In this document: positions 2-60,276 of the stretch, piece by piece
Layout of the letters: every line of letters begins with the position of its first letter
How positions within the stretch are numbered: the first letter of the stretch is position 1
Source: Candidatus Leucobacter sulfamidivorax
GTDB taxonomy: Bacteria > Actinomycetota > Actinomycetes > Actinomycetales > Microbacteriaceae
Reading direction: 5' to 3'
Assembly (NCBI GenBank): GCA_016771945.1
Contig: QZLF01000003.1
Coordinates: forward strand, 558,001-622,000
DNA: 64,000 nucleotides
The notes under the pieces: generated by a model
The model's input: only the letters and a program-made list of their open reading frames with translations
Databases searched by the model: none
What the model was told of the DNA's origin: nothing
Made by a program: the position numbers and the translations under genes

Positions 2-1807
2 ACCGTGTGGCCCGCATTGGGCCGGCTGCAGGAGCTGCACAATATCGGCTTCGCGTCCGTGTTCGGGGTGAACTGGGCGTTCGCCTATGACGCCGTCGAC
101 TACCTGGGCGGCGATTCGAGCGGTTCGATCGTGCAGCACTACTGGTCTCTCTCACTTGAAGAGCAGTTCTATCTCGTCTGGCCGGTACTGCTGCTGCTGG
201 TTGCGCTCGCAGCGACCAAGGCGAGCCGTCGCATGCCGAGTATCGGACGCTCGACGCGGCCCTACCTCGTAGCGATCTCGCTCGTGTTCGCCGCATCGCT
301 GCTCTACTCGATCTACGAGACCGCCCACTCCCAGCCCGTCGCCTACTTCATCACCCCGACCCGCATGTGGGAGCTTGCTGCAGGCGGCTTGATCGCCTTC
401 TTGCCGGCATCCAAGCGATTCGCGCCCCCAGAGCTTCCAGTATCAGCGGAGCGAGCGCTGGACCGTCTCGTACGAGCCGCGCACCCCGTACTGTCGTGGG
501 TTGCGTGGGCAGCGATCCTCGCCTGCGCTCTGCTCTTCGATGCGGCGACTCCGTTTCCGGGCTCCATCGCGTTGATCCCCGTCGCCGCGACCGCATACCT
601 GCTCTGGCAGCAGCCGGCGGGGCATCGCTGGTCGCCGCAGCGGCTCAGTGAGGTCAAGCCGGTCCAGTGGCTCGGTGACATCTCGTACCCCGTCTATCTC
701 TGGCACTGGCCCTTGATCGCCGTGTTCATCGCACTACGGCACAACACACCCGGGCCACTCGGAGCCGTGGCACTGATCGTGGCGACGCTGCTGCTGGCCT
801 GGTTGACGAAGCGATGGGTCGAGGATCCGCTGCGCTTCCGGGTCGCGCCCTTCTCGAAGCCGCAGGTGATGCTGCCGGTTGCGGCCGCCGGGATCGCCGT
901 GGCGCTCGTGGCGGCGTTGGTGCCGTCGGCCGCGATTCGCGCAGAGTATCAAGCCAGCTATGCGCAGTTCGAGCAGCTCGACCCTGTTGACCAGAGCTGC
1001 CTCGGTGCGCTCGCCCTGGTCAACAACTGCGAGAATCCGTTTGCACGCACCAGCACGGTCGATCCCGCTGCTGCGAGGGAGGACAACTACATCACTCGGG
1101 GCATCCGCGATTGCCCGCAGCGGCCGAACTTGAGCGGCGATCTCGAGATCGACTGCGTGTTGAGCGATCCGAGCGATCCTCAGCGCAACGCGGTGCTCAT
1201 CGGCGATTCGTTCACCGCCCAAATCGCGGACTCGCTCGGCGACGCGGCCGAGCGTCTGGGATGGAGGCTGCACGAACGCACGCTCACCGGCTGCACCGGA
1301 TTCTTGCGCGAGACCGACGGCTCCGATAACGATGCGCTGCGCTACTGCATCGACTGGGCGAACCGCAACTACCAAGAGGTGCTCGACGACCAGACGGTGG
1401 ACACTGTCATCATCAGCGCGAGGTCGCTCGACGCGAACGCCTGGCAGGAACCGGTCGCCCGCGAGAGGATCGCAGCGTTCGTCGATGCCGGCAAACTGGT
1501 CGTGGTCGTGCACAGCCCCCCGGGTTTCGATCTCGACCCGCCCGTATGCGTCGGCGAGACGCCCGGCGATGATCCCTGCACACAGCCCGACGAGGGGCGC
1601 AATGATTGGCTCGCACAGGCAGCGGATGGAACAGGGGCCGAACTGCTCGAGCTTCGCGCGCTGCTCTGTCCGGAGGGCGTCTGCCACACGGTCATCGGAG
1701 GCACCGTCGCTTACCTGGACCAGCACCACCTGACGCAGTCCTTCGCGCACACCCTGAGTCCCTGGTTCGAACGTTCACTCAGCGAGCTGGTCGCCGAACA
1801 CGGCTGA
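2..1807 (+). CDS. Acyltransferase 3 / SGNH-type O-acyltransferase (5' end outside window)
   Basis: Integral membrane O-acyltransferase of the OafA/YrhL kind, expected to acetylate an exported polysaccharide. The frame is open to the window edge, so the N-terminus is missing; the first GTG at 5 is probably internal. The N-terminal half holds many hydrophobic segments and an SLSLEEQFY motif typical of acyltransferase 3 proteins. The C-terminal third looks like an extracytoplasmic SGNH hydrolase domain: IGDSF near residue 399 supplies the nucleophile block and DQHH near residue 571 fits the DxxH block. It converges with the WbqC gene, 65 bp away. Family assignment is solid; the acceptor is unknown. 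Confidence 0.9.
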   Translation, partial: TVWPALGRLQELHNIGFASVFGVNWAFAYDAVDYLGGDSSGSIVQHYWSLSLEEQFYLVWPVLLLLVALAATKASRRMPSIGRSTRPYLVAISLVFAASLLYSIYETAHSQPVAYFITPTRMWELAAGGLIAFLPASKRFAPPELPVSAERALDRLVRAAHPVLSWVAWAAILACALLFDAATPFPGSIALIPVAATAYLLWQQPAGHRWSPQRLSEVKPVQWLGDISYPVYLWHWPLIAVFIALRHNTPGPLGAVALIVATLLLAWLTKRWVEDPLRFRVAPFSKPQVMLPVAAAGIAVALVAALVPSAAIRAEYQASYAQFEQLDPVDQSCLGALALVNNCENPFARTSTVDPAAAREDNYITRGIRDCPQRPNLSGDLEIDCVLSDPSDPQRNAVLIGDSFTAQIADSLGDAAERLGWRLHERTLTGCTGFLRETDGSDNDALRYCIDWANRNYQEVLDDQTVDTVIISARSLDANAWQEPVARERIAAFVDAGKLVVVVHSPPGFDLDPPVCVGETPGDDPCTQPDEGRNDWLAQAADGTGAELLELRALLCPEGVCHTVIGGTVAYLDQHHLTQSFAHTLSPWFERSLSELVAEHG

Positions 1808-45085: not shown

Positions 45086-45592
45086 CTACTCGGAGATGCG
45101 CGCCTGCAGCGCGGCGTTCTTCGTCTCGACGAGCTCGGCCAGCTCGCGCGCGTAGGCGTCGAGCCTGGCGGCGAGCGCCGCGTCGTGGGCGCCGAGGATG
45201 CGCGCGGCCAGCAGCCCCGCGTTCTTGGCCCCCCCGATCGAGACCGTCGCGACCGGGATCCCGCCGGGCATCTGCACGATCGAGAGCAGCGAGTCGAGGC
45301 CGTCGAGCTTCGCGAGCGGCACCGGCACGCCGATCACCGGCAGCGTGGTCATCGACGCGACCATGCCCGGCAGATGGGCCGCACCGCCCGCGCCGGCGAT
45401 GATCGCCTTGAGGCCGCGATCCGCCGCCCCGCGCGCGTAGGCCACCATCTTCTCGGGGGTGCGATGCGCACTCACCACCTCGACCTCGTGCGGAATGCCG
45501 AACTCGCGCAGCACCTGTACCGCGTCGCTCATCACCGAGAAGTCGCTGTCGCTGCCCATGATCACGCCGACGAGGGGCGCCTCTTCTGCCAT
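45086..45592 (-). CDS. purE: N5-carboxyaminoimidazole ribonucleotide mutase (PurE)
   Basis: 168 residues, class I PurE. It moves the carboxylate of N5-CAIR to C4, making CAIR in purine synthesis. Motifs: [37 protein letters not shown] and [14 protein letters not shown]. In most actinobacteria purE directly follows purK. Here purK lies on the same strand but 10.5 kb upstream, and the catabolic island at 45.7-56.0 kb is between them. purE must now use a promoter in or after the island. Confidence 0.96.
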
Positions 45593-45676: not shown

Positions 45677-46375
45677 TCAGATCACCAGATGCCGGGTCAG
45701 CAGCCCCTCGTCCCGGGCGAGCTCGGCGGAGATCCCCGAGGCGACGATCTCCCCCTTCTCGAGGATGTACGCCCGATCCGATATCTCGAGCGCCAGGGTC
45801 GCATTCTGCTCGACGAGCAGCACCGAGGTGCCCTCCGCCGAGAGGGCGACGAGCGAATCCGCGATCTCCCGCACGAGATTCGGCTGCACGCCGTCCGAGA
45901 ACTCGTCGATCACGAGCAGCTTCGGCGTGGGCGCGAGCGCTCGGGCGATGGCGAGCACCTGCTGCTGCCCGCCCGAGAGCGACCCGGCAGGTGCGGAGGA
46001 TCGCTCGCGCAGCAGGGGAAAGCGGTCCTGCACGAGGGCGGCGGCGGCGCGTCCCCGTTTGCCGCCCGGCACCGTGAGCAGCAGGTTCTCCATGACGCTG
46101 AGGTCGTGGAAGATCCCCCTGCCCTCGGGCACGTAGCCGATCCCCGCGCGCGCGATCTCGTGCGGCTTGCGGCCCGTGATCCCCCGCCCGAGGAAGGAGA
46201 TCGAGCCGGCGGTGACCGGGGCGAGCCCCATCAGCGCCATCATGAGCGTCGACTTGCCCATGCCGTTGCGGCCCACGACCGCGACGATCTCGCCGGAGGC
46301 GACGGTGAGCGACACCCCCGAGAGGACCGGGGCACCGCCCCGCGACGCATGCACGTCATCGATCTCCAGCATCAA
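45677..46375 (-). CDS. Branched-chain amino acid/amide-type ABC transporter ATPase (LivF-like)
   Basis: 232-residue ATPase of a Liv/Urt-type importer. Walker A is GRNGMGKST, the signature LSGGQQQVLAIARAL, and Walker B LLVIDEFSDGVQPNLV; the Phe in DEF replaces the usual Pro. LVEQNATLALEISDRAYILEKG is the typical LivF end (key VEQNATLAL). It is the last gene of the five-gene transport operon and overlaps LivG by 4 bp. The cargo may be an amide or aromatic acid rather than an amino acid, judged from the neighbours (inference). Confidence 0.93.
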   Translation of the reverse strand: MMLEIDDVHASRGGAPVLSGVSLTVASGEIVAVVGRNGMGKSTLMMALMGLAPVTAGSISFLGRGITGRKPHEIARAGIGYVPEGRGIFHDLSVMENLLLTVPGGKRGRAAAALVQDRFPLLRERSSAPAGSLSGGQQQVLAIARALAPTPKLLVIDEFSDGVQPNLVREIADSLVALSAEGTSVLLVEQNATLALEISDRAYILEKGEIVASGISAELARDEGLLTRHLVI

Positions 46376-47085
46376 TGCACCCCGCTTCCGAGATAGATGT
46401 CCCGCACGCGCTGATCGGCCTGCACCTCGTCGAGGGTGCCCTCCATGAGCAGGGACCCCCGATGCAGCACCGAGACCGTGTCTGCGATCTCCCGCACGAA
46501 GCCCATGTCGTGCTCGATGATGACCGTGGCGGCCTCGGAGCCGTACTTCCGGATCGCGGACGCCACCTCCCGGGTCTCGGCTCCGCTCATCCCCGCGGTC
46601 GGCTCGTCGAGGAGGATCACGCGGGGCGACCGCATGAACGCCATCCCGATCTCGAGCCGCTTCCGCTCGCCCTGCGAGAGCTGGGACGCGATGGCCTGCT
46701 CGCGCCCGGTGAACCCCAGGTCCTCGCGCAGCGACCGGCCCCGCTCCTCGAACGCGCGGTCGAATCTTGCGGCAAGCGCGAAGTTCTCCGCGACGGTGAG
46801 AGCGCCGAAGACCCGGGGCGTCTGGAAGGTCCTCAGGACCCCCGCGCGGGCGAGACGGGCCGGGGTGCGACGGTTCAACGGCTCGCCGTCGAGCCGCACC
46901 CTGCCCTCGCTGGACTTCACGATGCCGGTGATCGCGTTCACGAACGTCGTCTTTCCGGCGCCGTTCGGGCCGATGACGCAGCGGAACTCGCCGCGCCTCA
47001 GCGCGAGGGTGACGTCGTTCAGAGCCGTCACGCCGCCGAAGCGGCAGCTCAGGCCCTCCACCTCCAGGATCGCGGTGCGCTCCAT
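46372..47085 (-). CDS. Branched-chain amino acid/amide-type ABC transporter ATPase (LivG-like)
   Basis: 237-residue ATPase. Walker A GPNGAGKTTFVNAITG, signature LSQGERKRLEIGMAF, Walker B VILLDEPTAGMSG, and an H-loop in VIIEHDMGF; the ERKRLEI form of the signature resembles the UrtD urea-transporter subgroup. The frame is open much further upstream, but MERTAILEVEGLSCRFGG at 47085 starts the domain normally and its ATG overlaps the LivM stop by one base (TGATG). Confidence 0.93.
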   Translation of the reverse strand: MERTAILEVEGLSCRFGGVTALNDVTLALRRGEFRCVIGPNGAGKTTFVNAITGIVKSSEGRVRLDGEPLNRRTPARLARAGVLRTFQTPRVFGALTVAENFALAARFDRAFEERGRSLREDLGFTGREQAIASQLSQGERKRLEIGMAFMRSPRVILLDEPTAGMSGAETREVASAIRKYGSEAATVIIEHDMGFVREIADTVSVLHRGSLLMEGTLDEVQADQRVRDIYLGSGVH

Positions 47086-48068
47086 CACTTGACCGTCAGC
47101 TTTCTCTTCAACAGCGACGGGATCGAGGCGATCCCGTTGGGCAGGAACAGCACCGCGAGCACGAAGAGGCAGCCGGTCACCAGCTGGTAGACCGTCGCCG
47201 AGGAGCCGGCCAGCATCGACTGCGTGGTGGTGAGGAGCACCGCGATGACGATGGGGCCGATCAGGCTGCCGACGCCGCCCAGGGTGACCCAGACGAACAC
47301 CTGGATCGAAAGCGCCACCCCGACGACCGAGGGATCCACGATCCCGATCGTCGAGCCGTAGATCGCGCCGACGATCGCCGCCATCGCCGCGGAGACCATC
47401 GAGATCGCGGTCTTGTACCAGAGCGTCCGGTAGCCGAGCGCGTCGGCTCGCAGCTCGTTCTCGCGCAGGCCGACGAGCACCCGCCCGAAGCGGCTCCGCT
47501 GCACGAGGAAGGCCGCCACGAGAGCGGCGATCAGCAGGACGCCCGCGAAATAGTACAGCGAGAGCTGCGACTTGAGCTCCAGGCGGAACAGCCCCGGCAG
47601 TTCGATGACCGGTGTGGGGATCCCGACCAGCCCGTTGGATCCGCCGGTGATGTCGCCCTGGGAGAGGATGATCTGCTGCACGGCCAGCGCGAGCGCGAGG
47701 GTCAGCAGGGCGAAATAGATGTCCTTGACCCCCGAGCGGAAGGCGACGAGCGCCACGATCCCCGCCACGGCGGCGGCGATCACCGCCGTGACCACGAGGA
47801 TCACCGGGGTGCTCCACCATCCTTCGAACACGTCGTTCAGGATCGCCCACAGGTAGGCCCCGATGCCGAACGACAGTGCCGGAGCGAGGTGGAGGATCCC
47901 CGCCGTGCCCCAGAGCAGGTCCATGCTGAGCGCCAGCACCGCGAAGAGCATCCCCGTCGCGACGATCGTGATGACGAAGTTGCCGGAGAACGCCAGGGGG
48001 ATGCCGATGACGAGCACGACGAGCGCGATGAGCGAGATGACGAATCCTCGTCGACTGAGGAGGTTCAT
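47085..48068 (-). CDS. Branched-chain amino acid/amide-type ABC transporter permease (LivM-like)
   Basis: 327-residue permease with about nine to ten hydrophobic segments. MDLLWGTAGILHLAPALSFGIGAY and VALRSGV/GLRENELRADALGY-like segments (here GLRENELRADALGY) are LivM signatures, the latter being the ATPase-contact loop. ATG 48068 overlaps the LivH stop by 4 bp. A longer reading upstream has no membrane segments and is not supported. Confidence 0.93.
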   Translation of the reverse strand: MNLLSRRGFVISLIALVVLVIGIPLAFSGNFVITIVATGMLFAVLALSMDLLWGTAGILHLAPALSFGIGAYLWAILNDVFEGWWSTPVILVVTAVIAAAVAGIVALVAFRSGVKDIYFALLTLALALAVQQIILSQGDITGGSNGLVGIPTPVIELPGLFRLELKSQLSLYYFAGVLLIAALVAAFLVQRSRFGRVLVGLRENELRADALGYRTLWYKTAISMVSAAMAAIVGAIYGSTIGIVDPSVVGVALSIQVFVWVTLGGVGSLIGPIVIAVLLTTTQSMLAGSSATVYQLVTGCLFVLAVLFLPNGIASIPSLLKRKLTVK

Positions 48069-48925
48069 GCGATCCTCGTCTTTCTCGAGAACAGCCCCTG
48101 AGGTCGCAGCAGGATGGTCAGCATCGCGATGCCGAGAACCAGCAGCTGCGTCGCGGATCCGGAGAGCCACACGCCTGCGACGCTCTGACCTCCTCCGATG
48201 ATGACGCTGCCCCCGACGGTTCCGCCGATGCTGCCCATGCCGCCGGTGATCACCACGAGGAAGGAGCGCACGGTCTGCTCGAGGCCCATCAGGGCGTTCA
48301 CCCCGACGAATGGCGCCATGAGCGCACCTGCGAGTCCCGCCAGCCCCGCCCCCACGGCGAAGGTCGAGCTGAACATCCGGCCCGTGTTCACCCCCAGCGC
48401 CGACGCCGTGCTCGAGGACTCCGCCGTGGCCCGCACCCGTATCCCCCAGGACGTGCGGTACATCGCGTAGGCGATGGCGACGGTCACCGCCACGGAGATG
48501 CCCGCCGCGACCAGGCGATAGCTCGGATACTGGGTGCCGAAGATCGCGAGCGATCCCTCGATCGGGGAGCCCACCGACAGCGATTGGGGTCCGAAGATCA
48601 ACCGGATCAGTTGCTGCAGGACGATGCTCAGGCCGAAGGTGACGAGCAGGGTGCTGAGGTCCCTCCGGACGTAGAGCCGCCGGATGATCCCGCGCTCGAT
48701 CGCGGCACCCACGGCGCCGAGGACAAGAGGGGCGAGCAGGATGCCGAGCCAGAGATCGACCCCGAGTCGATCGACGACCACCATCACGAACGCGCCCAGC
48801 ATGAAGAACTCTCCGTGCGCCATGTTGATGATCTTCATGACCCCGAACACCACCATCAGGCCGAGTGCGACCTGCGCGGTGAATACCGTCGCGACGATGG
48901 CGTTCATCCAGTCAACTGCTGACAC
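48065..48925 (-). CDS. Branched-chain amino acid/amide-type ABC transporter permease (LivH-like)
   Basis: 286-residue permease with about eight hydrophobic segments. GVMKIINMAHGEFFMLGAF is the LivH/UrtB hallmark, RATAESSSTASALGVNTGRM is the ATPase-contact loop, and VVITGGMGSIGGTVGG the conserved late segment. GTG 48925 starts it, 43 bp after the stop of the binding-protein gene. It pairs with LivM to form the membrane pore. Confidence 0.93.
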   Translation of the reverse strand: MSAVDWMNAIVATVFTAQVALGLMVVFGVMKIINMAHGEFFMLGAFVMVVVDRLGVDLWLGILLAPLVLGAVGAAIERGIIRRLYVRRDLSTLLVTFGLSIVLQQLIRLIFGPQSLSVGSPIEGSLAIFGTQYPSYRLVAAGISVAVTVAIAYAMYRTSWGIRVRATAESSSTASALGVNTGRMFSSTFAVGAGLAGLAGALMAPFVGVNALMGLEQTVRSFLVVITGGMGSIGGTVGGSVIIGGGQSVAGVWLSGSATQLLVLGIAMLTILLRPQGLFSRKTRIA

Positions 48926-48968
48926 CGCCCGCCCCTTCTCTCACGATGCTTCGCGAACTCTCGGCGAC

Positions 48969-50192
48969 TCAGGCGTCCTGCGAGCTGCAGCCCGAGAACC
49001 CCGGATGCTCGACCTCGCCGAAGTTCTCGATCAGCGCGTAGCCGTCTCCCTCGATCTGCAGCAGCAGCATCGGAGCCGTCACGATGTGGTTGGCGCCCAT
49101 GGTGAGCGTGCCGGCCGGCGAGTCCACCGAGATGCCGGGCAGCGCATCGGCGATCGCGCCGCCGTCCGTGGACCCCGCCTTCTCGACCGCCTCCTTGAGC
49201 ATCAGCAGCGTCGAATAGGTGCCGACGGCCGCCATCGGATGCACCGGTCGGACATCGGGATACGCGGCGGAGAAGGCCTCGACGAAGCGCTGGTTCTCCG
49301 GATTGTCCAGTCCCTCCCAGTAGTTGTCGACCGTGTAGACGCCCTGGGCGATGTCGGAGACGCCCGAGAGCACCTCGCCCGCGAAGCTCGGGATGCCGGT
49401 GAGCTTCATGTCGCCGATGCCGAACTCGGTCAGCTGCTTGACCAGCGCGACGCCGTCGGCGCCGACGACCGAGATGAAGAGCACGTCGGGATCGGCGCTC
49501 TGGATCTTCGAGATGTAGCTGGAGAAGTCGGTGGTGCCGAGAGGCGCGTAGTCCTTGGCCACCACGGTTCCCCCGTTCTCCTCGACGAGATCGGCGGTGA
49601 TGTCGTTCACGAAGTGCGGGAACACGTAGTCGGAGCCGATGAAGTACACGGACTGGCCGAGGTTCTCGAGCATATAAGGGACGAAGCGGTCCATCTTCTG
49701 CTCGGGGGTCGCGCCGTTGCCGAAGATGAACCGTCGCGCCTCTTCGCCGCTCGCGTCGCAGGTCTTGGCCTCGCCCTCCGCGATGTAGATGAACGGCACC
49801 TCGGCCCGCTCGACCTGCGGGATGACGGCGAGCGTGGTCGCGGAGCTCGTGGTGCCGATCAGCACGTCGACCTCGTCCTGGTTCAGCAGCTTGCTGGCCT
49901 GGGTGGACGCGGCCTTGGGGTCGGTCTGATCGTCTTCCAGGATGTACTCGACCTGCTTGCCGCCGATGCCGCCGTCGGCGTTGATGAGGTCGACGGCGAC
50001 CTCGAAGCCCTGCTCCATGGCGACGCCGTAGGGCGCGAGGGAGCCGGTCTTGGGTGCGAGCACTCCGATCGTGAAGACGTCGTCGTCTCCGCCTCCGGAG
50101 CCTCCGCTCGACGCGCATCCGGCGAGGAGCAGGGCGAATCCGCTCGCCAGCGCAAGCGCCTGTGCGGTGCGCGAGGCGTTCTTCCTTCTCAT
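48969..50192 (-). CDS. ABC transporter substrate-binding lipoprotein (Peripla_BP type, urea/amide-like)
   Basis: 407-residue lipoprotein. The signal ends in the lipobox LLLAGC, followed by a Ser/Gly linker. The mature part begins FTIGVLAPKTGSLAPYG, typical of type-1 periplasmic folds of Liv/Urt/AmiC-like binding proteins, with LIGTTSSATTLAVIPQVE and YFIGSDYVFPHF; the last segment resembles urea- and short-chain amide-binding members more than Leu/Ile/Val ones. ATG 50192 follows AAAGGA. Two operator-like TGTATACA sites lie 52-70 bp upstream. Confidence 0.9.
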   Translation of the reverse strand: MRRKNASRTAQALALASGFALLLAGCASSGGSGGGDDDVFTIGVLAPKTGSLAPYGVAMEQGFEVAVDLINADGGIGGKQVEYILEDDQTDPKAASTQASKLLNQDEVDVLIGTTSSATTLAVIPQVERAEVPFIYIAEGEAKTCDASGEEARRFIFGNGATPEQKMDRFVPYMLENLGQSVYFIGSDYVFPHFVNDITADLVEENGGTVVAKDYAPLGTTDFSSYISKIQSADPDVLFISVVGADGVALVKQLTEFGIGDMKLTGIPSFAGEVLSGVSDIAQGVYTVDNYWEGLDNPENQRFVEAFSAAYPDVRPVHPMAAVGTYSTLLMLKEAVEKAGSTDGGAIADALPGISVDSPAGTLTMGANHIVTAPMLLLQIEGDGYALIENFGEVEHPGFSGCSSQDA

Positions 50193-50243
50193 GGTGTGTC
50201 CTTTCGAGGTTGTCGTGTTCATCGCAGCCGAGGATCGGCGTAT

Positions 50244-50262
50244 TGAATACATTTTGTATACA
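50244..50262. promoter_or_regulatory. Predicted GntR operator pair upstream of the ABC importer operon
   Basis: TGAATACA (50244-50251) and the perfect palindrome TGTATACA (50255-50262), with starts exactly 11 bp apart, between the binding-protein gene and the cysteine hydrolase gene. Likely bound by the FCD-type GntR regulator of the island. Confidence 0.65.
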
Positions 50263-50304
50263 TTTATTCCGAGAGCAGACCGGTCCGGTCCGCCCGTCCC
50301 GGTC

Positions 50305-51114
50305 TCAGCTCGCCGCTTTGAGGTGCGCGCGCTCGCGGCTCGCCTCGTGGTGCAGCTGGTCGCCGTCGGCCAGGGCACCGGCGATCGCCCGATGATCCAT
50401 CACCCTCGCGAACCCCCGGCGCAGCGTCATCAGCGTCGCCTCGTGGGCCATGGCGTTGTCGCTCGCGCTCACATCCGAACCCACTACGACGTGGTAGTTC
50501 AGGAAGTACGCGGTGCGCGCGGTCGACTCGACGCAGAAGTTCGTGATGGTCCCGCAGACGATGACCGTGCGGATCCGGTTCGCGCGCAGCACGTAATCGA
50601 GGTTCGTGCCCGCGAAGGAGTCGTAGGCGTGCTTCACATCGATGATGCGCTCCCCCGGCAAGGGGTCGAGACCGTGATAGAGCTTCGTGTTCCGCTCGCC
50701 CTCCTTGATCGCCCCGGCCGCGATCGGCTCCCAGTACTCGTAGAAGTCGGCGGGAGCGTCCTGGGGGATGTGATGCTCGGTGTAGAGGATCTTCACGCCG
50801 GCCTCGCGACAGGCGTCGATCAGCGCGAGCGTCCGGGGGATCTGCCGATAGGCCTCGGGCACGAACATCGGATTGCCGGGATTCACGAAGTCCTCCTGGA
50901 GATCGACGACGATCAGCGCGGTCTCCTCCGGCTTGATCTCGAAAGCCCAGTGCCGGTCGGTGTGGTAGTCGGACGCGGCGAAACGGATGAACTCCTGCTC
51001 ACCGCTGAACTTGCCGGGAGCCTCCAGGATGTCGCTCCCGAACAGATCGTCGTCCGTTCGCCCGTAGGTCGCCTTGAACTGCTCGACCGGGTCAGTGTTC
51101 ATATCGCCAAACAT
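50305..51114 (-). CDS. Isochorismatase-like cysteine hydrolase
   Basis: 269-residue amidohydrolase. The catalytic triad is visible: D71 in ALIVVDLQEDF, K161 in IIDVKHAYDSF, and the nucleophile C194 in VCGTITNFCVESTAR with the preceding cis-peptide GT. Enzymes of this superfamily hydrolyse N-carbamoyl, maleamate, biuret and nicotinamide-type amides. An N-terminal extension of about 60 residues beyond the core is like N-carbamoylsarcosine amidase-type members. ATG 51114 or 51102. It is a single-gene unit with its own three-copy operator upstream. Confidence 0.88.
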   Translation of the reverse strand: MFGDMNTDPVEQFKATYGRTDDDLFGSDILEAPGKFSGEQEFIRFAASDYHTDRHWAFEIKPEETALIVVDLQEDFVNPGNPMFVPEAYRQIPRTLALIDACREAGVKILYTEHHIPQDAPADFYEYWEPIAAGAIKEGERNTKLYHGLDPLPGERIIDVKHAYDSFAGTNLDYVLRANRIRTVIVCGTITNFCVESTARTAYFLNYHVVVGSDVSASDNAMAHEATLMTLRRGFARVMDHRAIAGALADGDQLHHEASRERAHLKAAS

Positions 51115-51151
51115 CGTCTCTCCTTGGAATCAAGCGCTGACGCGCCCAGTT

Positions 51152-51181
51152 TATATACGGTTTGTATTCAATTTGAATACG
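51152..51181. promoter_or_regulatory. Predicted GntR operator array, three copies, upstream of cysteine hydrolase
   Basis: Three 8-bp elements begin at 51152 (TATATACG), 51163 (TGTATTCA) and 51174 (TGAATACG), exactly 11 bp apart, 38-67 bp before the ATG. The local AT-richness stands out from the surrounding GC-rich DNA. Confidence 0.65.
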
Positions 51182-51233
51182 TTACGGTTACGGTCTCGTG
51201 TCCGCGGTCGTCGGGCCTGTCCCCGCCCCCGCC

Positions 51234-51788
51234 TCAGAACCACCACGGCAGCTCCTCGTGACCGAAGTCCCGGAAGTCGCCGAAGCGGCCGCCCAGGAAG
51301 GCCAGCGGACCTCCCAGGCGATCGCGGCTGGCCGTCACCCTGCCGAAGAACACATCGTGATCGCCGATGACGTGATGCTCATGCAGAACGCACTCGGCCT
51401 GCGCCAGCGCTCCCTCGACGACGGGGATCCCGCCGGGGGTGCCCTCGAACTCGCCGTCCGCGAAGCGCTCCCCGCCGCGAACCGCGAAGCGACGGGCGAT
51501 CGCCTCCTGCTTGGCGCCGAGGATCGAGATCGCGAACCGGCCGCCCTCCTGCAACGCGGCGCCGGTGCGGGTCCCGAAGTTCAGCGCGAGCATGAGGATC
51601 GGCGGCTCCAGGCTGATGGACTGCAGCGAGCTGATCGTGCTGCCGTGATGCGCACCCGCCGCGTCGACAGCGGTCACCACCGCGACACCGGTGAGGTAGC
51701 GCCCCATCGTGTTCCGCATGTCCAGCCCGGTGGGCTCGGAGGTCCACGGCCCGAGGCGGCTGGTCGTCGAGGCTTCGGAGGGACTCAT
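51234..51788 (-). CDS. Flavin reductase (HpaC-like), partner of the HpaB-type monooxygenase
   Basis: 184-residue flavin reductase-like protein. MGRYLTGVAVVTAVDAAG, HGSTISSLQSISLEPPILMLAL (key SSLQSISLEPP) and a GHHDVFFG-like stretch (IGDHDVFFGRV) define the flavin reductase-like FMN-binding family. It would supply FADH2 to the monooxygenase two genes upstream. ATG 51788 overlaps the cupin stop by 4 bp. It is the last gene of the five-gene catabolic operon. Confidence 0.9.
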   Translation of the reverse strand: MSPSEASTTSRLGPWTSEPTGLDMRNTMGRYLTGVAVVTAVDAAGAHHGSTISSLQSISLEPPILMLALNFGTRTGAALQEGGRFAISILGAKQEAIARRFAVRGGERFADGEFEGTPGGIPVVEGALAQAECVLHEHHVIGDHDVFFGRVTASRDRLGGPLAFLGGRFGDFRDFGHEELPWWF

Positions 51789-52147
51789 GGCCGCGGCCCT
51801 CGATCCTGGTAGTAGCGGACCTCGAACATCCTGGCGCCGTGCTCCGATCGCCAGGGACCGTGCTCCATTCCCGGCGGACGCGTCGCCCAATCCCCCGCCT
51901 TGAACTCCCTTCCCAGTCGGAGATCGACGAAGGAGCCCTCGAAGATGAAGACCTCCTCCCAGAAATCGTGCGTCAGCACCCCGTTCGGAGAGGTGTCGGT
52001 CCCGGGCTGGAAGGTGAGGATCCGCGTCACGGCGTCGCTCTCGCTGTCACGTGAGAGGATCTGCTCGCTGAGACCCTCGATGGGGGGATCGCACGGCGTG
52101 GGGGGCACCGAGGCGGAAGCCGTGAACTCGAACTCCGACTTGGGCAT
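51785..52147 (-). CDS. Small cupin domain protein
   Basis: 120-residue single-domain cupin. LTHDFWEEVFIFEGSFVDL fits the first cupin motif (H and E at the metal-binding places) and GDWATRPPGMEHGPW the second (H near the end). Such small cupins can be metal-dependent dioxygenases, isomerases or ligand binders. Placed between monooxygenase and reductase genes, it may open an oxidised ring or chain (inference). Its start shares one base with the HpaB stop (TGATG). Confidence 0.8.
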   Translation of the reverse strand: MPKSEFEFTASASVPPTPCDPPIEGLSEQILSRDSESDAVTRILTFQPGTDTSPNGVLTHDFWEEVFIFEGSFVDLRLGREFKAGDWATRPPGMEHGPWRSEHGARMFEVRYYQDRGPRP

Positions 52148-53640
52148 CAGATCTCCCTCCGATCCGCCGACGCGTCGATCGAGGCCCGGGAGCCGTAGCC
52201 TGCGAGGAACTCGTCGATCTCGCCGAGCAGCTCGTCGTAGCCGAAGTTGCGATAGGCGTACGCGCCCTTCACGACGAACGGGGCGCCGGCGTAGAACATC
52301 TCGTACTGCTGATGGCGGCCGGCGAACTCCGACCCGATGATGTCCCAGGCGAGCTTGAACAGCTTGATGCGCTCCTCGCTCGGGAAGCCGGGCGACTGAT
52401 AGTAGCGGGCGACATCCGCGGCACTGGCCTCGCCGTAGAGATCCTTCACGCTGGACGGCAGCTGCGTGACGCCCCCTCCCACGAGATCCCGCAGGATCTG
52501 GATCACACGCGGATAGGTCTCCGACTGCAGACCCATGATTCCGTACAGCGCGCGGCGGCCGGGGATGTAGACCCCGTTCGCATCGGGCTCCGCGGTGACC
52601 TGGGCGGCGAGGAGCGCGGACTCGACGGTGGAGACGACCGCGGCGAGCTCACCGAGCTTCTCCTGCACGCCCGGGAACTTGTCGGTGCCGTTCACCTGCG
52701 CCACCTTCCGCGCCACGGCCGCGATGAACTTCAGCTTCACCGTGAGACGGGTCTGGGCCTGCCAGTTGCCGAGCGCATGCGCCCCGGTCTCGAAGAACTG
52801 GCGGCCGAGCGCCTGCGGGTTGCGGTTGATGAACACCCGGTCCCAGGGCACGAGCACATCGTCGAAGACCATGAGCACATCGTGCTCGTCGTAGCGCGAG
52901 GTGAGCGGGTAGTCGAAGTCGCTCGTCGCGGTGCTGTGATACGGACGACGGCAGTACATCTTCATGCCGGGCGTCGAGGCGGGCATGGCGAAGCTGATCG
53001 CGAAGTCCCGGTCGTCCGGCCCGAGGGGCTTGATGCAGGTGACGAAGACCTCGTCGGTGACCGGCCCGCCGGTCGCCAGCATCTGCGAACCGCGGACGAC
53101 GAGGCCCTCCTCGGTCTCGCGCACCACGCCGACCTGCAGGAACTCGCCCTCCCAGCCGGAGGCCGTCGTCGCCCTCGAGACCTGCGGCGGGATGATCGCA
53201 TAGGTGACGTAGAGGTTCTCGCGGAGGATCCGCTCGTAGAACCTGCGGACGTTGCCGGCGTAGTCCCGGTCGTCGCCCTCCTCGCCGGCGAAGACCTCGG
53301 GATGGCTCGCGAAGCCCGCGAAGAAGGTGCCGACGTGATCGGGACTGCGTCCGACCCAGCCGTGGGTGTGCTTCGCCCATCTCTCCACGGCCCGCCGACG
53401 GGCCGCGAGGTCCTCCGGAGAACGCGGCACGGAGAAGACGAGGTTCGCGGAGGCGTCGATCTCGGGCGCCCGGTACTGCATGCCGTTGGCGGGGTCCGCC
53501 GCGATGTCGAAGAGCTCGGCCACGGTGGTGCGGATGCCGGCGAAGGCGGGATGCTCAGCCACATTCTCGACGACCTCTCCGTCGAGAATCACCGTGCGTC
53601 CGTCGTTCAGACTGTCGAGGTATTCCTGTCCGGTTCTCAT
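52147..53640 (-). CDS. 4-hydroxyphenylacetate 3-hydroxylase (HpaB)-family flavin monooxygenase
   Basis: 497-residue group D FADH2-dependent monooxygenase with acyl-CoA-dehydrogenase-like fold. MRTGQEYLDSLNDGRTVILDGE (key GQEYLDSLNDGR) is the family N-terminus, THGWVGRSPDHVGTFFAGF follows, and DVLVPWDRVFINRNP is the flavin-site segment. HpaB enzymes hydroxylate phenols; related enzymes open pyridine-type rings. The genes for amide-hydrolysing enzymes beside it favour a nitrogen-containing substrate (inference). The start ATG overlaps the DUF2848 stop by 4 bp; the reductase lies two genes downstream. Confidence 0.92.
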   Translation of the reverse strand: MRTGQEYLDSLNDGRTVILDGEVVENVAEHPAFAGIRTTVAELFDIAADPANGMQYRAPEIDASANLVFSVPRSPEDLAARRRAVERWAKHTHGWVGRSPDHVGTFFAGFASHPEVFAGEEGDDRDYAGNVRRFYERILRENLYVTYAIIPPQVSRATTASGWEGEFLQVGVVRETEEGLVVRGSQMLATGGPVTDEVFVTCIKPLGPDDRDFAISFAMPASTPGMKMYCRRPYHSTATSDFDYPLTSRYDEHDVLMVFDDVLVPWDRVFINRNPQALGRQFFETGAHALGNWQAQTRLTVKLKFIAAVARKVAQVNGTDKFPGVQEKLGELAAVVSTVESALLAAQVTAEPDANGVYIPGRRALYGIMGLQSETYPRVIQILRDLVGGGVTQLPSSVKDLYGEASAADVARYYQSPGFPSEERIKLFKLAWDIIGSEFAGRHQQYEMFYAGAPFVVKGAYAYRNFGYDELLGEIDEFLAGYGSRASIDASADRREI

Positions 53641-54314
53641 GCTGTGTGTCCTTTCATGCGGTAGTCATGGGCGAGTCTGGAGCCGTCCGGGAGCTCGATC
53701 TCGATGTGCCAATACTCCCCTGCGGCGAATGCGCCGTCGAGAAGCGGCAGCGTCCCGCCCAGGCAGACGAAGTCGTCGTCCTCGACGAGCTCGAATCGCT
53801 CGAGGAGACGCCCGATCACGTCGGCCGCGGTGCGCAATCCGCCGAGGCCGCCCTCCTGGTAGAGGCGGCCGTCGACCGTGCAACGGGCGAGCGATCCGTC
53901 GAGGTCGAGAGCGGCGAGCTCGGCGACCGAGCCGATTCGGACCACCTCGGCGCCCACGGGCTTCGGGCATGCGCGTTTCGAGCTGCCGATGTCGATCCGC
54001 TCGAGATCCCGGTCCGTATGATCCGATCCGACGCCGAGGTAGTACGTCCCCCGGTGACGGATGTAGACGGGCTCGATCTCTCCCGAGGTGAGATTCGCCG
54101 AGTCGCGGTACTCGGGGTCGGAGTTCACGCTCGCAGCCTCGACCGAGTAGAACATCGGCACCTCCGGAGGCGGAGCGACTCCGATCGCCGCGAGCTCGTC
54201 GATGTGATGCTGCACGGCCGATGCGTCGCGCCCGGTGTAGCCGGCGACGACGCCGCGGAAATCAGCCAGTTCGATGCGCTCGTCGCCGCCGAGGACTCGG
54301 AAGGAGAGCGTCAC
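53637..54314 (-). CDS. DUF2848 family protein (fumarylacetoacetase-like)
   Basis: 225-residue protein of the uncharacterised DUF2848 family. The segment YYLGVGSDHTDRDLE with SSKRACPKPVG downstream is its signature; the charged GSDHTDR and the DGAFAAGEYWHIEIE end suggest a fumarylacetoacetate-hydrolase-like fold (inference). Members often occur with aromatic-degradation genes, so C-C bond cleavage or isomerisation of a ring-opened acid is possible. It overlaps both neighbours by 4 bp. Confidence 0.82.
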   Translation of the reverse strand: MTLSFRVLGGDERIELADFRGVVAGYTGRDASAVQHHIDELAAIGVAPPPEVPMFYSVEAASVNSDPEYRDSANLTSGEIEPVYIRHRGTYYLGVGSDHTDRDLERIDIGSSKRACPKPVGAEVVRIGSVAELAALDLDGSLARCTVDGRLYQEGGLGGLRTAADVIGRLLERFELVEDDDFVCLGGTLPLLDGAFAAGEYWHIEIELPDGSRLAHDYRMKGHTA

Positions 54315-55126
54315 TGCTCGGCCCCGCTCTCATCCGAGATCGAGGCGTAGTCGGCGAGGCGATCGGCGATCACCGGGAACTCCTCCCGCACCCGGGCGGT
54401 CCGCGCGGGGTCGATCTCCACTATGCGCACTTCCTCCTCGGAGCCGCACTCCGCGATCACCTGACCGGAGGGATCCACGACCCGGCTGGAACCGCCGAAC
54501 TCGACGCCGCGCTGGACGCCGCAGCTGTTCACGGCGAGGGTGAACACCTGATGCTCGATCGCGCGCGCCTGAGTCAGCAACCGCCAGTGCTCCCGTCGCG
54601 CCGCGGGCCAGGCCGCCGGGATCGCCACGGCCTCCGCACCCCGCAGGCTCAGCTGCTGCCAGAGACCCGGGAAGCGGAGGTCGTAGCAGGTGATGCTCCC
54701 GAGCCTGCCGACCGGGCTCTCGATCACGCTCAAGGTATCGCCCGGGGTGAGCAGTTCCGCTTCGAGCGACTCGTATCCGAAGACGTGGATCTTGCGATAC
54801 ACCTGGGCTATCCGCCCGCTCGCGTCGATCAGCACAGCGGTATTGCGCAGACCGCCCTCGGCATCCCGCTCCAGGATGCTGCCGAGGTGAACAGCCGCCC
54901 CCAGCTCCCGGGCGACGCGGCGTCCCATTCTCACCGTGGGTCCGTCGAGGCTCTCCGCACGCTCGGCGTACTGCGCGAAGGAGAGATAGCCCGCGCCCCA
55001 GAGCTCGGGAAGGATGAGGAAGTCCGCCTCCCGCTGCCGCAGGAGGAGCCGCTCGACACGATCGATCCGATCGGACGGAGCCTCGTCGTCGGGACTGGCG
55101 ATTTGCACCAGGGCCACTCGGGTCAT
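54311..55126 (-). CDS. Carbon-nitrogen hydrolase (nitrilase superfamily, omega-amidase-like)
   Basis: 271-residue amidase. The Glu-Lys-Cys triad is clear: E41 in LILPELWGAGY, K112 in YRKIHVFGYE and C147 in ITCYDLRFPGLW. The CYDLRFP form is that of omega-amidases and related amide hydrolases rather than nitrilases. It would release ammonia from a primary amide of the pathway. It is the first gene of the catabolic operon, and three operator-like sites lie 79-108 bp upstream of its ATG. Confidence 0.9.
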   Translation of the reverse strand: MTRVALVQIASPDDEAPSDRIDRVERLLLRQREADFLILPELWGAGYLSFAQYAERAESLDGPTVRMGRRVARELGAAVHLGSILERDAEGGLRNTAVLIDASGRIAQVYRKIHVFGYESLEAELLTPGDTLSVIESPVGRLGSITCYDLRFPGLWQQLSLRGAEAVAIPAAWPAARREHWRLLTQARAIEHQVFTLAVNSCGVQRGVEFGGSSRVVDPSGQVIAECGSEEEVRIVEIDPARTARVREEFPVIADRLADYASISDESGAEQ

Positions 55127-55204
55127 GACCGCTCCTTCGCAGATCGAGTTGGGTCCGCGGCGCGGAGATCGTTCCCCGACCGCATCGAACGTGACTTCTC
55201 AAAG

Positions 55205-55234
55205 TGTAGACCACATGTATACACAATGTCTACA
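55205..55234. promoter_or_regulatory. Predicted GntR operator array, three copies, upstream of the catabolic operon
   Basis: TGTAGACC (55205), TGTATACA (55216, perfect palindrome) and TGTCTACA (55227), starts exactly 11 bp apart, in the 149 bp between the amidase start and the gntR stop. Confidence 0.7.
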
Positions 55235-55275
55235 ATAGGGCGGAAAGATGCTCGCCGCTTCGGCGGCGAACGCGC

Positions 55276-55923
55276 TCAGGCCGCGGTCGCGGCGGCCAGG
55301 GTGGACTGCAGATGGAGCCGGATGGCCTCGTCCACGTCGCCGTCGTCGCAGACGGCGTCCAGGATGGCCTGGTGCTCCCGGAGCACGTTCTCAGCCCTGT
55401 TGGGTCCGTGAGTCACCGCGCGCACGCCGATGCGGAGCTGACGCTGACGCAGCGAGCGGTAGAAGTCGTTGAGCACGGGATTGCTCCCCAGGCTGACCAT
55501 CCGCGCGTGGAACTCGATGTCCAGCTCGATGAAGCGCGCCGTGTCGTCCTGCGACTGCCGCTGCTGGTCGATGAGATCCTGGAACGTCTCGGCATCCCGG
55601 CGGATCGCCTCCCCCGCCGAATGCACCGCCCACTGCTCCACCAGCGCGCGGGCGTCGAGCAGCGCGCGCACATCCGCATCCGTGATCTGCGGCACGTAGA
55701 CGCCCTTCCGGGGGATGCGACGCAGGAACCCCTCGCTCTCCAGCCGGAGCAGGGCCTCCCGCACCGGTGTCCGCGAGGTCTCCGTGGCCGTGGCGAGCGC
55801 CACCTCGTTGAGAAACGCATCCTGGTCCCGCGGAAGATCCACGATGTACCGCTTGATCCACTCGTATGCGACGTCGGGGGCCGATTGGTGGTCGGACGGA
55901 ACCCGCGTGAGAGGCTTGGCCAT
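55276..55923 (-). CDS. GntR family transcriptional regulator, FCD (FadR) subfamily
   Basis: 215-residue regulator. Residues about 15-80 are a winged helix-turn-helix (LNEVALATATETSRTPVREALLRLESEGFL; key SRTPVREALLRLE). The C-terminal FCD domain has ELDIEFHARMV, LREHQAILDAV and IRLHLQST, giving the Asp and three His that bind a metal and ligand. ATG 55923 (MAKPLTRV) gives normal length. It likely represses the island in the absence of a pathway compound, binding the TGTATACA sites, one of which is 54 bp upstream of its own start. Confidence 0.92.
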   Translation of the reverse strand: MAKPLTRVPSDHQSAPDVAYEWIKRYIVDLPRDQDAFLNEVALATATETSRTPVREALLRLESEGFLRRIPRKGVYVPQITDADVRALLDARALVEQWAVHSAGEAIRRDAETFQDLIDQQRQSQDDTARFIELDIEFHARMVSLGSNPVLNDFYRSLRQRQLRIGVRAVTHGPNRAENVLREHQAILDAVCDDGDVDEAIRLHLQSTLAAATAA

Positions 55924-55976
55924 CGATGTCCTCCTGAGTCCGTTTCCTGCACGGCGTCGGCGAGCGTTACACCTCA

Positions 55977-55984
55977 TGTATACA
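55977..55984. promoter_or_regulatory. Predicted GntR operator upstream of the regulator's own gene
   Basis: Single perfect TGTATACA palindrome 54 bp before the gntR ATG, in the 128 bp between gntR and purK. It suggests autoregulation. The position 11 bp upstream (55966) is only a poor match. Confidence 0.6.
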
Positions 55985-56051
55985 CCGCCCGGGCGGGACC
56001 GCGGCGCAGAGCCCCTCCGGAGGCGCGCAGAGGTGCGCAGCGGGACGCGGA

Positions 56052-57215
56052 TCAGCGGAACATCTCGGCGGCCGCGCGCGCCTCGGCCCGCACCTCGGCG
56101 AGATCCTCGCCCGTCACGGTGACGTGCCCGACCTTGCGGCCCGGCCTGGGCAGCTTGTCGTAGCTGTGGATCTTGGCCCGCGGATGCGCCGCGAGCACCG
56201 ACGCGTAGCGCACCGGCATCGGCCCCTCGGCGGGTCCGCCGAGCACGTTCACCATCACCGCGGCGGGGGCCGTCATCGAGGTGTCACCGAGCGGCAGATC
56301 GGCCACCGCGCGCAGGTGCTGCTCGAACTGGCTCGTCACCGACCCCTCGATCGAGAAGTGCCCCGAGTTGTGGGGACGCATGGCGAGCTCGTTCACGAGC
56401 ACGCGCCCGTCGCGGGTCTCGAACATCTCGACGGCGAGCACGCCGGTGACGCCCACGCCCTCGGCGATCGTCCGGCCGATGCGCGCCGCCTCTTCGAGGG
56501 TCGCGGGATCCGCCACGGGCGCGGGGGCGAGCACCTCGGCGCAGACGCCCCCCTCCTGGATCGTCTCCACGACGGGCCACGTGCGCATCTCGGCGGATCC
56601 GACCCCACCGGGCCGTCGCGCGACGAGCTGCGAGAGCTCGCGGACGAAGTCGACCAGCTCCTCGGCGAGCAGGTGGCCGCCGCGGCCGTCCTCCGCGAGG
56701 GCGGTGAACCAGTCGCGCACCTCGTCGGCCTGAGAGACGACCCGGACGCCTTTGCCGTCGTAGCCGCCACGGGCGGTCTTCACGACGGCGCGACCGCCGT
56801 TCGCCTCGATGAAGGCCTGCAGCTCGGCCTCGTCCGAGACGGTCGCCCACACGGGCACCGGCACGCCGAGCTCGGCCAGCCTGCGCCGCATGAGGATCTT
56901 GTCCTGCGCGTAAAGCAGCGCCTCGGGCCGCGGGTGCACCGCGACGCCGCGGGCCTCGAGCTCGCGCAGGATCGGCTGCGGCACGTGCTCGTGATCGAAG
57001 GTGACGACATCGACGGTGTCGGCGAAGGCGTAGACGGTCTCGGGCTCGCGGTAGTCGCCCACCGCGTCCGCCGCGCGGGCCGCGCTCATCCCCTCGGTCT
57101 CGGCGAGCACGCTGATGCGCAGGCCGAGGTGGATCGCGGGCGGCACCATCATGCGGGCGAGCTGGCCGCCGCCGATCACGCCGACGCGGATGATGCCGTT
57201 CTCGCTCGAAGCCAT
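56052..57215 (-). CDS. purK: 5-(carboxyamino)imidazole ribonucleotide synthase (PurK)
   Basis: 387-residue ATP-grasp enzyme that carboxylates AIR with ATP and bicarbonate. IRVGVIGGGQLARMMVPPA is the PurK start, FDHEHVPQPIL follows, VVKTARGGYDGKGV binds ATP, and NELAMRPHNSGHFSIEG is diagnostic. ATG 57215 follows GGAGG. Its partner purE lies 10.5 kb downstream, separated by the catabolic island. The 309 bp upstream, shared with the divergent efflux gene, holds an inverted repeat and two MarR-type operators. Confidence 0.96.
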   Translation of the reverse strand: MASSENGIIRVGVIGGGQLARMMVPPAIHLGLRISVLAETEGMSAARAADAVGDYREPETVYAFADTVDVVTFDHEHVPQPILRELEARGVAVHPRPEALLYAQDKILMRRRLAELGVPVPVWATVSDEAELQAFIEANGGRAVVKTARGGYDGKGVRVVSQADEVRDWFTALAEDGRGGHLLAEELVDFVRELSQLVARRPGGVGSAEMRTWPVVETIQEGGVCAEVLAPAPVADPATLEEAARIGRTIAEGVGVTGVLAVEMFETRDGRVLVNELAMRPHNSGHFSIEGSVTSQFEQHLRAVADLPLGDTSMTAPAAVMVNVLGGPAEGPMPVRYASVLAAHPRAKIHSYDKLPRPGRKVGHVTVTGEDLAEVRAEARAAAEMFR

Positions 57216-57286
57216 GTCCTCCATTCTGCCGCACACCGCGCGGTCCCCCGCTTCGCGCAGTCCGCCGTCCCGTCTCCTCCCGCAAC

Positions 57287-57340
57287 CAGTTGTCACTTTG
57301 ATGCTCTATTCCGCGATTTGAAGCACCGAAGTGACAACTG
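57287..57340. repeat. Perfect 12-bp inverted repeat in the purK/efflux divergent region
   Basis: CAGTTGTCACTT (57287-57298) and its exact reverse complement AAGTGACAACTG (57329-57340), 30 bp apart. It lies 72 bp upstream of the purK ATG. It may be an operator pair or a hairpin in the purK leader; sequence alone does not decide. Confidence 0.6.
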
Positions 57341-59267: not shown

Positions 59268-59749
59268 TCCCCGACATCATCGCCGAGTTCGGTCAGCTCT
59301 TCGCGATCGCGAGGGTGCGGTGGGCAAGACTCGCCGAGCAGCTGCACCCCGACCTGCGGGCCCCGGATCTGCTGATGCTGCAGACCATCGCGCGCAAGGG
59401 CCCCATCACCGCGACCGAGCTGACCCAGCTGCTCTCCACCGACAAGGCGCTCGTGAGCCGTCAGATCGCCAAGCTGCGGCAGCTCGGCCTGGTCGATGCG
59501 GTGCACGACGAGGCCGACCGCCGCGTCGTGCTGCTCTCGGCCAGCGAGGAGGCGCGCACGACGCTCGGCGAGTTGCACGCCAGGCTGTCGGCGAGCTACG
59601 AGCGGCGCCTGGCCGGTTGGAGCGACGAGGACCTCTCGACGCTCCAGACGCTGCTGCACCGCTTCAACGCGACCTCGCCCGAGCCCGAGCTCGACGGGCC
59701 CGCCGCGCGCTGCTCGGCCCGGCAGACGGCGGAGCAGGCCGAGGGCTAG
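59264..59749 (+). CDS. MarR family transcriptional regulator
   Basis: 161-residue winged-helix regulator. ITATELTQLLSTDKALVSRQIAKLRQLGLV is the recognition helix region (key LSTDKALVSRQIAKL) and DEADRRVVLLSASEEA the wing, with the family's D-x-R-R. GTG 59264 overlaps the efflux gene stop. Its stop TAG (59747-59749) is made of the TA target duplication plus the first base of the second IS5-family element, so the insertion has just spared the coding part. Confidence 0.92.
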   Translation: MIPDIIAEFGQLFAIARVRWARLAEQLHPDLRAPDLLMLQTIARKGPITATELTQLLSTDKALVSRQIAKLRQLGLVDAVHDEADRRVVLLSASEEARTTLGELHARLSASYERRLAGWSDEDLSTLQTLLHRFNATSPEPELDGPAARCSARQTAEQAEG

Positions 59750-60276
59750 GGCGTGTCTGTTAAATAGTTCAGCCAGGCGATGACTCCGTTCAGGACCACT
59801 GCGGCCCGGTACACGATCGCGAGTTTGTCGTACCGGGTCGCGAGCCCCCGCCACTGCTTCACCCGGCAGTAGCCGCGCTCGATCACGTTCCGGCCGCGAT
59901 ACTTCACCGCATCAAACTTCGGCGGCCTGCCGCCACGAGAGCCGCGCCGCTTCCGGTTCGCCTGCTGATCACGAGGTTCGGGAATCACCGCCTCGATACC
60001 GTGTCGTCGCAGATAGGCGCGATTCCCTCGTGATGAGTACGCCTTGTCACCCAACGTGGCATCGGGGCGGGTGCGACGACCCACCCGCAGATGCTCCATC
60101 AGCGGGACGAACATCGGCGAATCGCCGTCCTGCCCCGCCGTCACGATCGTCACCAACGGCAGGCCGCGGCCATCGACCAGCTGATGTGCCTTCGTCGACA
60201 GGCCGCCACTGGAACGGCCGATCGCGTGATCAGGCGGCTCGGCCAGCAGATTCTTGTACTTCCACGCAGCCCTTTT
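59746..60276 (-). CDS. IS5-family transposase, C-terminal part (OrfB)
   Basis: Second part of the DDE transposase, open from 60276 in the +1 frame relative to OrfA, probably made by frameshifting. It carries the catalytic Asp in TLGDKAYSS and the Glu in NVIERGYCRVKQW. GTG 60156 (MVTIVTAG) is the nearest separate start. Its TAG stop (59748-59746) lies outside the element and is built from the target duplication, as in copy 1. Confidence 0.9.
   Translation of the reverse strand, partial: KRAAWKYKNLLAEPPDHAIGRSSGGLSTKAHQLVDGRGLPLVTIVTAGQDGDSPMFVPLMEHLRVGRRTRPDATLGDKAYSSRGNRAYLRRHGIEAVIPEPRDQQANRKRRGSRGGRPPKFDAVKYRGRNVIERGYCRVKQWRGLATRYDKLAIVYRAAVVLNGVIAWLNYLTDTP

Follow-up and report, generated by a model that had tools for sequence, protein, structure and literature searches.

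Within a 64,000-nucleotide stretch of Candidatus Leucobacter sulfamidivorax (contig QZLF01000003.1, positions 558,001 to 622,000; hereafter the window), an island of catabolic genes carries copies of the palindrome TGTATACA and its near matches, arranged exactly 11 bp apart and, at the main promoter region, interlocked with promoter-like hexamers. The arrangement is probably the target of a repressor of the GntR superfamily encoded in the same island by gntR (55276..55923, minus strand), which, judging from sequence comparison, would read a doublet of operator units 11 bp apart laid over the promoter. The main composite element, TGTAGACCACATGTATACACAATGTCTACA (55205..55234, assigned to no strand, like the other sites), is a near-symmetrical stretch of 30 bp composed of three units at 11-bp steps, TGTAGACC at 55205, TGTATACA at 55216 (the centre, 55216-55223) and TGTCTACA at 55227, and lies 79-108 bp before the start (55126) of nit, the first gene of the nit-hpaB operon.

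An earlier note on this DNA had listed nine such sites, and direct reading located all of them at the coordinates given here, with unit starts exactly 11 bp apart inside each array; its observation of phased palindromes is thus confirmed. Besides the main element, a two-unit array (50244..50262; TGAATACA at 50244, TGTATACA at 50255) precedes the ATP-binding cassette (ABC) importer, 52-70 bp from the start of the binding-protein gene (50192), and a weaker three-unit array (51152..51181; TATATACG at 51152, TGTATTCA at 51163, TGAATACG at 51174) precedes the isochorismatase-family hydrolase, 38-67 bp from its start (51114), with the units at 51152 and 51174 matching just 6/8 positions. A lone TGTATACA (55977..55984) lies 54-61 bp from the gntR start and has no phased partner (4/8 matches at -11 and 1/8 at +11, counted by eye). 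Sites therefore stand before all four transcription units, as had been claimed, but arrays before three of them only, gntR having the single site.

Taken singly, near-matches in the window are weak evidence: with at most one mismatch, 6 are present against 1.96 expected, and 5 of 100 shuffles reach 6. Their phased form is strong evidence, and the 11-bp spacing is not due to chance. Spacing 11 yields 5 doublets and 2 triplets in the window, against no more than 2 doublets each and zero triplets at spacings of 8-10 and 12-25, and Markov simulations (60 sequences of 64 kb) averaged 0.017 doublets of 11-bp spacing per sequence. The genome-wide search that the earlier note had proposed showed the sites to be nearly restricted to the island. 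Across the 3.84-Mb genome, the phased doublet (up to 3 mismatches) occurs at 6 places, 5 of which are in the island and correspond to the overlapping doublets of the three arrays, whereas a reversed-pattern control gave 1. Exact TGTATACA occurs at 3 places, every one in the island; as the reversed control occurs at 6, scarcity alone is unremarkable, and it is the location that is unusual.

The GntR protein has 215 residues, with a winged helix-turn-helix domain and an FCD domain, and its ATG (55923) is preceded by AGGAGG (by eye). Both Pfam models score above their cut-offs (FCD 66.2 bits, GntR 41.5 bits), placing it in the FCD subfamily of the GntR superfamily. Across 13 aligned regulators of our own selection, S50, R51, T52 and R55, as well as E40, are invariant (13/13), and the first four match by eye the contact residues Ser44-Arg45-Thr46-Arg49 of Atu1419, a tetrameric VanR-type FCD regulator of Agrobacterium with folate as effector (PMC7797058). 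Likewise invariant in 13/13 are D135, H139, H184 and H204, which together could form a metal site (D-x3-H, H, H); the assignment of the pattern D/N-x3-H ... H ... H to these residues is our own. Residues 94-210 align with residues 135-250 of NanR, leaving 41 fewer residues upstream and therefore no room for an N-terminal extension like the 32-residue one of NanR. A single-chain AlphaFold model built without an alignment had a mean predicted local distance difference test (pLDDT) score of 45.5, too low for use.

Relatives of the regulator were collected at E<=1e-25 in the family (22/398 genomes, with identity above 50% in just three, the own genome included), at E<=1e-40 in the genus (2/54 genomes) and the phylum (1/396, the own genome), and in one genus of another family, that of G705 (33/198 genomes); G and L numbers denote genomes and loci. 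The relatives that proved useful came from searches of the family and the order, from the genus of G705 and from plasmid records. A search of genome contigs with the regulator gave one match (41% over residues 130-166), which was set aside. Longer stretches were retrieved for G014, G234, G705 and twelve further genomes, plus one Arthrobacter plasmid record, and most of them matched the operon gene by gene; L036 (Embleya) matched in gntR and nit only, and in L033 the flavin reductase was unmatched.

With the window array 55205-55234 as a fixed consensus (7+8+7 = 22 positions), 35 of 36 loci score at least 17/22 at spacing 11, and zero loci do so at spacings 7-10 and 12-21; adding the omitted L036 and L065 gives 35/38. 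As G705 is counted twice (L034, L048), 35/36 loci correspond to 34/35 genomes or records, or 34/37 with L036 and L065. Also left out of the count were L079-L081, which are further stretches of genomes already counted, and L037, L042, L051, L060 and L066, short loci or loci with variant centres and without TGTATACA, which were replaced by the longer L067-L070 and L074, where arrays are present. Removing arrays with flanks at least 50% identical left 14 non-redundant arrays, in which columns of at least 1 bit are confined to the 30 bp (the top column beyond reaches 0.91 bit). Three information peaks stand out, TAGAC, GTATAC and GTCTA, the flanking two at -9..-5 and 12..18 relative to the central unit (0..7), and the outer units are mirror images of each other, not direct copies. 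The GTATAC centre is found in 14/14, a figure partly built in, since centres had to match 6/8.

The position of gntR relative to the array-bearing operon varies from divergent (L034) to inside (L033, L067) and tandem upstream (window, L032), and arrays also accompany a second GntR lineage that is just ~42% identical. This joint occurrence of array and regulator type in several gene layouts gives good comparative support to the earlier proposal that the FCD-type GntR reads the sites, with binding itself as the predicted part. Three genomes carry two arrays about 4 kb apart (L067 12393-12422 and 16419-16448; L079 2095-2124 and 6105-6134; L080 1619-1648 and 5627-5656). Between the two arrays of L067 lie an APC-type permease and an amidohydrolase-like gene (by eye), which hints at a wider regulon there.

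The conserved 30 bp coincide with promoter-like sequence. A plain promoter scan of 50100-56200 returned 2 sites against 0.5 expected, both within the main element and one per strand. On the minus strand, facing the nit-hpaB operon, the -35-like hexamer TAGACA (55227..55232) lies inside the right-hand unit and the -10-like hexamer TACACT (55203..55208; form TAnnnT) overlaps the left-hand unit, so that the central palindrome sits within the predicted 18-bp spacer. The mirror-image pair on the plus strand, TAGACC-18-TACAAT (55207..55236), points antisense into gntR. Promoter pairs were scored in 25 gntR-side arrays and 14 others, with the second arrays of L067, L079 and L080 unscored. All gntR-side arrays (25/25) present TAGAC(A/G)-18-TACAGT to the operon, and among the others TAGACA or TGGACA-18-TAnnnT faces it in 10/14, the window's main array included. 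Overall, TRGAC(A/G)-18-TAnnnT faces the operon in 35/36 main loci (the miss being L073), a count that is partly built in, because the query consensus already contains TAGAC and the first two bases (TA) of the -10; it does not contain the last base of either hexamer (T in the -10, A in the -35). In the gntR-side arrays, the third base of the -10 is C toward the operon (25/25) and T toward gntR (22/25, with TAnnnT also in 22/25); the difference therefore follows gene direction, whichever strand is concerned.

The operator core, GT-N2-AC (N, any nucleotide), is unevenly distributed over the three units. In 35/35 main arrays the centre is accompanied, 11 bp away, by one complete neighbour or two, and a complete neighbour is present in 12 of the 14 non-redundant arrays, whereas all three units carry the complete core in 8/35 and one outer unit lacks it in 27/35. 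The -35-side unit is complete in all ten window-like arrays and the -10-side unit in 5/10; among the gntR-side arrays, the unit on the -10 side of the operon is complete in 25/25 and the other outer unit in 3/25.

These counts bear on the earlier note's model, in which two or three equivalent full operators are each occupied by a single GntR dimer and the dimers stack cooperatively along the same DNA face. We regard it as unlikely, although the window, where all three main units carry the core, is among the arrays that suit it, and the importer and isochorismatase arrays are phased in spite of lacking a hexamer pair. It also has a precedent in NanR, three FCD dimers of which crowd one operator (PMC8012715), and a recognisable fourth unit follows at the next 11-bp step in three loci (L071 5491-5531, TCTATACA; L072 5674-5714, TCTATACA; L074 8819-8859, TGAATACT). 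Against it, beyond the 27 arrays with a lost core, the gntR-facing outer half has changed from G to A in 22/25 gntR-side arrays, and this replacement of the guanine, made on both palindrome halves, abolished binding of Atu1419 (PMC7797058). Moreover, successive dimers of NanR sit half a helical turn from one another and depend on the 32-residue extension (PMC8012715) for which the island protein has no room. The non-random spacing thus upholds the phasing that the note described, but given the cores lost in outer units and their overlap with promoter-like hexamers, three equal dimers are not the best reading, and a doublet inside a promoter fits better.

Somewhat more doubtful is the opposite simplification, by which one dimer would bind the central TGTATACA and the flanking units would be no more than the hexamers (-35 and -10) of two divergent promoters that overlap. 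The near-universal operon-facing hexamer pair and the direction-specific -10 sequences are what it explains well. It leaves unexplained why one of the neighbours retains a complete operator core in 35/35 main arrays, why the importer and isochorismatase arrays are phased though without hexamers, and why GT is kept outside the -35 hexamer in 10/10 window-like arrays. The operon-facing -10 also has a non-consensus C in 25/25 gntR-side and 9/10 window-like arrays, a base that preserves the operator core and that no promoter by itself would call for. More distant loci point the same way. Around FCD regulators of other genera, 32-37% identical to that of the island and fetched as 3.6-kb loci meant as negative controls and without an HpaB match, GTATAC is accompanied by a second core, GTATGC, at lag 11 in 14/19 loci, and in those 14 the lags 7-10 and 12-25 show none; the remaining 5 contain no exact GTATAC. 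The 11-bp doublet is therefore a trait of the wider clade, which a promoter alone does not explain, and 9 of the 14 loci come from one genus. The doublet GTATAC-N5-GTATGC stands beside the gntR start (L011-L020, L022, L023, L025, L028), and in 13 of the 14 loci a neighbouring gene matches the window's nitrilase at 30-34%.

It is improbable that the arrays serve for DNA looping, with a tetrameric, Atu1419-like regulator bridging distant sites (arrays ~0.75 to 4 kb apart) and phased units raising local affinity. The FCD tetramer Atu1419 does bind ATGTATACAT with a proposed 190-bp loop (PMC7797058), and its chain 6z74 appears among the sequence matches of the island regulator, but many of the fetched loci have one array only within 14-21 kb. 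Least credible of all is a different regulator reading the sites, for which it can be said that the genome holds 22 FCD matches and that binding by the island GntR is a prediction, against the fact that in several genera the arrays accompany gntR genes of this lineage or of the ~42% identical one, and the confinement of exact sites to the island of gntR itself.

Under the doublet-over-promoter reading that we prefer, the GntR encoded at 55276-55923 would most likely repress the catabolic island. Its operator would be GT-N2-AC, with TGTATACA as the best form, preferably in a doublet 11 bp apart and on nearly one helix face. At the main promoter, the strong central unit would occupy the 18-bp spacer between -35 and -10, and the neighbour 11 bp away would overlap one hexamer, on the -35 side in window-like arrays and, where a divergent gntR shares the array, on the -10 side of the operon. 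The third unit would be chiefly a promoter hexamer that, in the window, also retains the operator core. The bound complex, presumably assembled cooperatively, would cover -35, spacer and -10 and thereby exclude RNA polymerase, and a pathway metabolite lodged in the FCD pocket would release it. Through the weaker 11-bp arrays, the regulator would control the importer and the isochorismatase-like hydrolase as well, and the lone site upstream of gntR may serve autoregulation.

Several observations weigh against this reading. No hexamer pair is present in the importer and isochorismatase arrays of the window or in the array of a major facilitator superfamily (MFS)-type carrier in L032. In the gntR-side arrays, GT is lost from the operon's -35-side unit in 22/25, so the side of the partner varies; that the operon lies across the array from gntR was verified in 6 of them and presumed for the others. 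A complete neighbour is missing in L079 and L080, the match reaches just 14/22 in L036 (Embleya) and 13/22 in L065, and in L073/L081 (G1333) the operon is present and the triple absent (12/22). L073, likewise without a hexamer pair, has TGTATACC in the gap where the array is expected. A crude test, which misses the island's own arrays too, detected no 11-bp doublet just upstream of the 21 FCD genes that the genome has besides gntR. Most of the 36 loci come from one genus and are related, so that the counts are not independent events. Finally, the window keeps all three cores though the other side has no sense gene, which speaks for a third operator or for the remnant of a divergent arrangement.

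A broader generalisation is offered only tentatively, and we would sooner doubt than assert it: the clade may have an operator grammar of its own, in which at least two palindromes exactly 11 bp apart allow in-register stacking on one face, and a 30-bp element would act as operator, -35, spacer and -10 at once, in both directions where the layout is divergent. Such a grammar would contrast with the half-turn spiral of NanR.

The island genes all lie on the minus strand, in the order gntR, operon, isochorismatase-family hydrolase and ABC importer. The operon comprises nit, a carbon-nitrogen hydrolase of the nitrilase superfamily (54311..55126), a DUF2848 protein (53637..54314), an HpaB-family flavin-dependent monooxygenase (52147..53640), a cupin (51785..52147) and a flavin reductase (51234..51788), and is followed by the isochorismatase-family cysteine hydrolase (50305..51114), treated as a separate transcription unit. 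The HpaB-1 model scores 333.6 bits against a cut-off of 480.2, which identifies a member of the HpaB family below the equivalog level for hpa; the substrate is therefore not taken to be 4-hydroxyphenylacetate. The importer (45677..50192) starts with a substrate-binding protein (48969-50192), the one component searched against Pfam and NCBIfam, which resembles UrtA with a score below the cut-off, followed by genes labelled LivH/M/G/F-like by eye from open reading frame translations.

In L032, L033, L034 and L067, the four relatives in which flanking genes were read, the place of the window's ABC importer is taken by an MFS-type carrier (by eye) at or beside the operon. In G014, of the same genus, this carrier adjoins the operon and has its own phased sites (L032 8728-8746), and the 20 kb of that genome (L032) contain no match to the window's importer. 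The island is flanked by purE and purK (45086-45592 and 56052-57296). Among ten same-genus relatives with purK, purE adjoins it within the 1.5 kb fetched in 6 and not in 4 (including G014), and the purE-purK junction may therefore be a recurrent insertion point. An open reading frame at 59746-60156 resembles a fragment of an IS5-type transposase (by eye only).

Already on record are the palindrome itself, sites that overlap a promoter, arrays bound cooperatively by FCD regulators and additional boxes next to GntR palindromes (PMC7797058, PMC8012715, PMC4494728). A close counterpart is Atu1419, whose paper is the only one among the open-licence texts searched where TGTATACA was found together with a GntR regulator. 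It shares with the island the palindrome TGTATACA within ATGTATACAT, sites placed over the -10 or between -35 and -10, the contact residues S-R-T-x-x-R, catabolic genes and the metal-site pattern D/N-x3-H, H, H; its two sites, however, lie 190 bp apart, and the accessible part of the report mentions no 11-bp neighbour (PMC7797058). NanR of E. coli is likewise an FCD regulator with two or three tightly packed sites, the spacing of which matters, and binds the operator (GGTATA)3 through three dimers packed cooperatively half a turn apart with the aid of its 32-residue extension (PMC8012715). Its repeats are non-palindromic, whereas the units of the window are palindromic and 11 bp apart, and the long N-terminal extension of NanR has no equivalent in the island GntR (PMC8012715).

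In 13 groups of the FadR subfamily, Suvorova et al. (2015) described additional, weaker half-sites at a distance of 7-12 nt from the centre of the palindrome (PMC4494728). The inner GTC/GAC of the island, about 8.5-10.5 nt from the centre, would fall into this class. The neighbour in the island differs in that it is a complete GT-N2-AC unit, stands at a constant distance of 11 bp and coincides with promoter hexamers, and overlap with -35 or -10 is not discussed in the half-site section of that study (PMC4494728). The earlier note had called tandem phased arrays unusual for FadR-like regulators, a statement that holds in part only, in view of the three repeats bound cooperatively by NanR (PMC8012715) and the half-sites of these 13 groups (PMC4494728). 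Among the open-licence texts searched, no report was found of a fixed 11-bp, full-turn doublet fused with promoter hexamers in such a clade, no account matching the catabolic pathway of the island and, among the texts searched for that pathway, no mention of DUF2848. The overlap seen here suggests that promoter hexamers may account for some of the additional half-sites described next to GntR palindromes. Exact TGTATACA, island-only in this genome, provides a marker for the regulon of an HpaB-type catabolic pathway, and sites of one, two, three and four units, whose regulators can be aligned, form a natural series for asking how tightly FCD dimers pack in phase.

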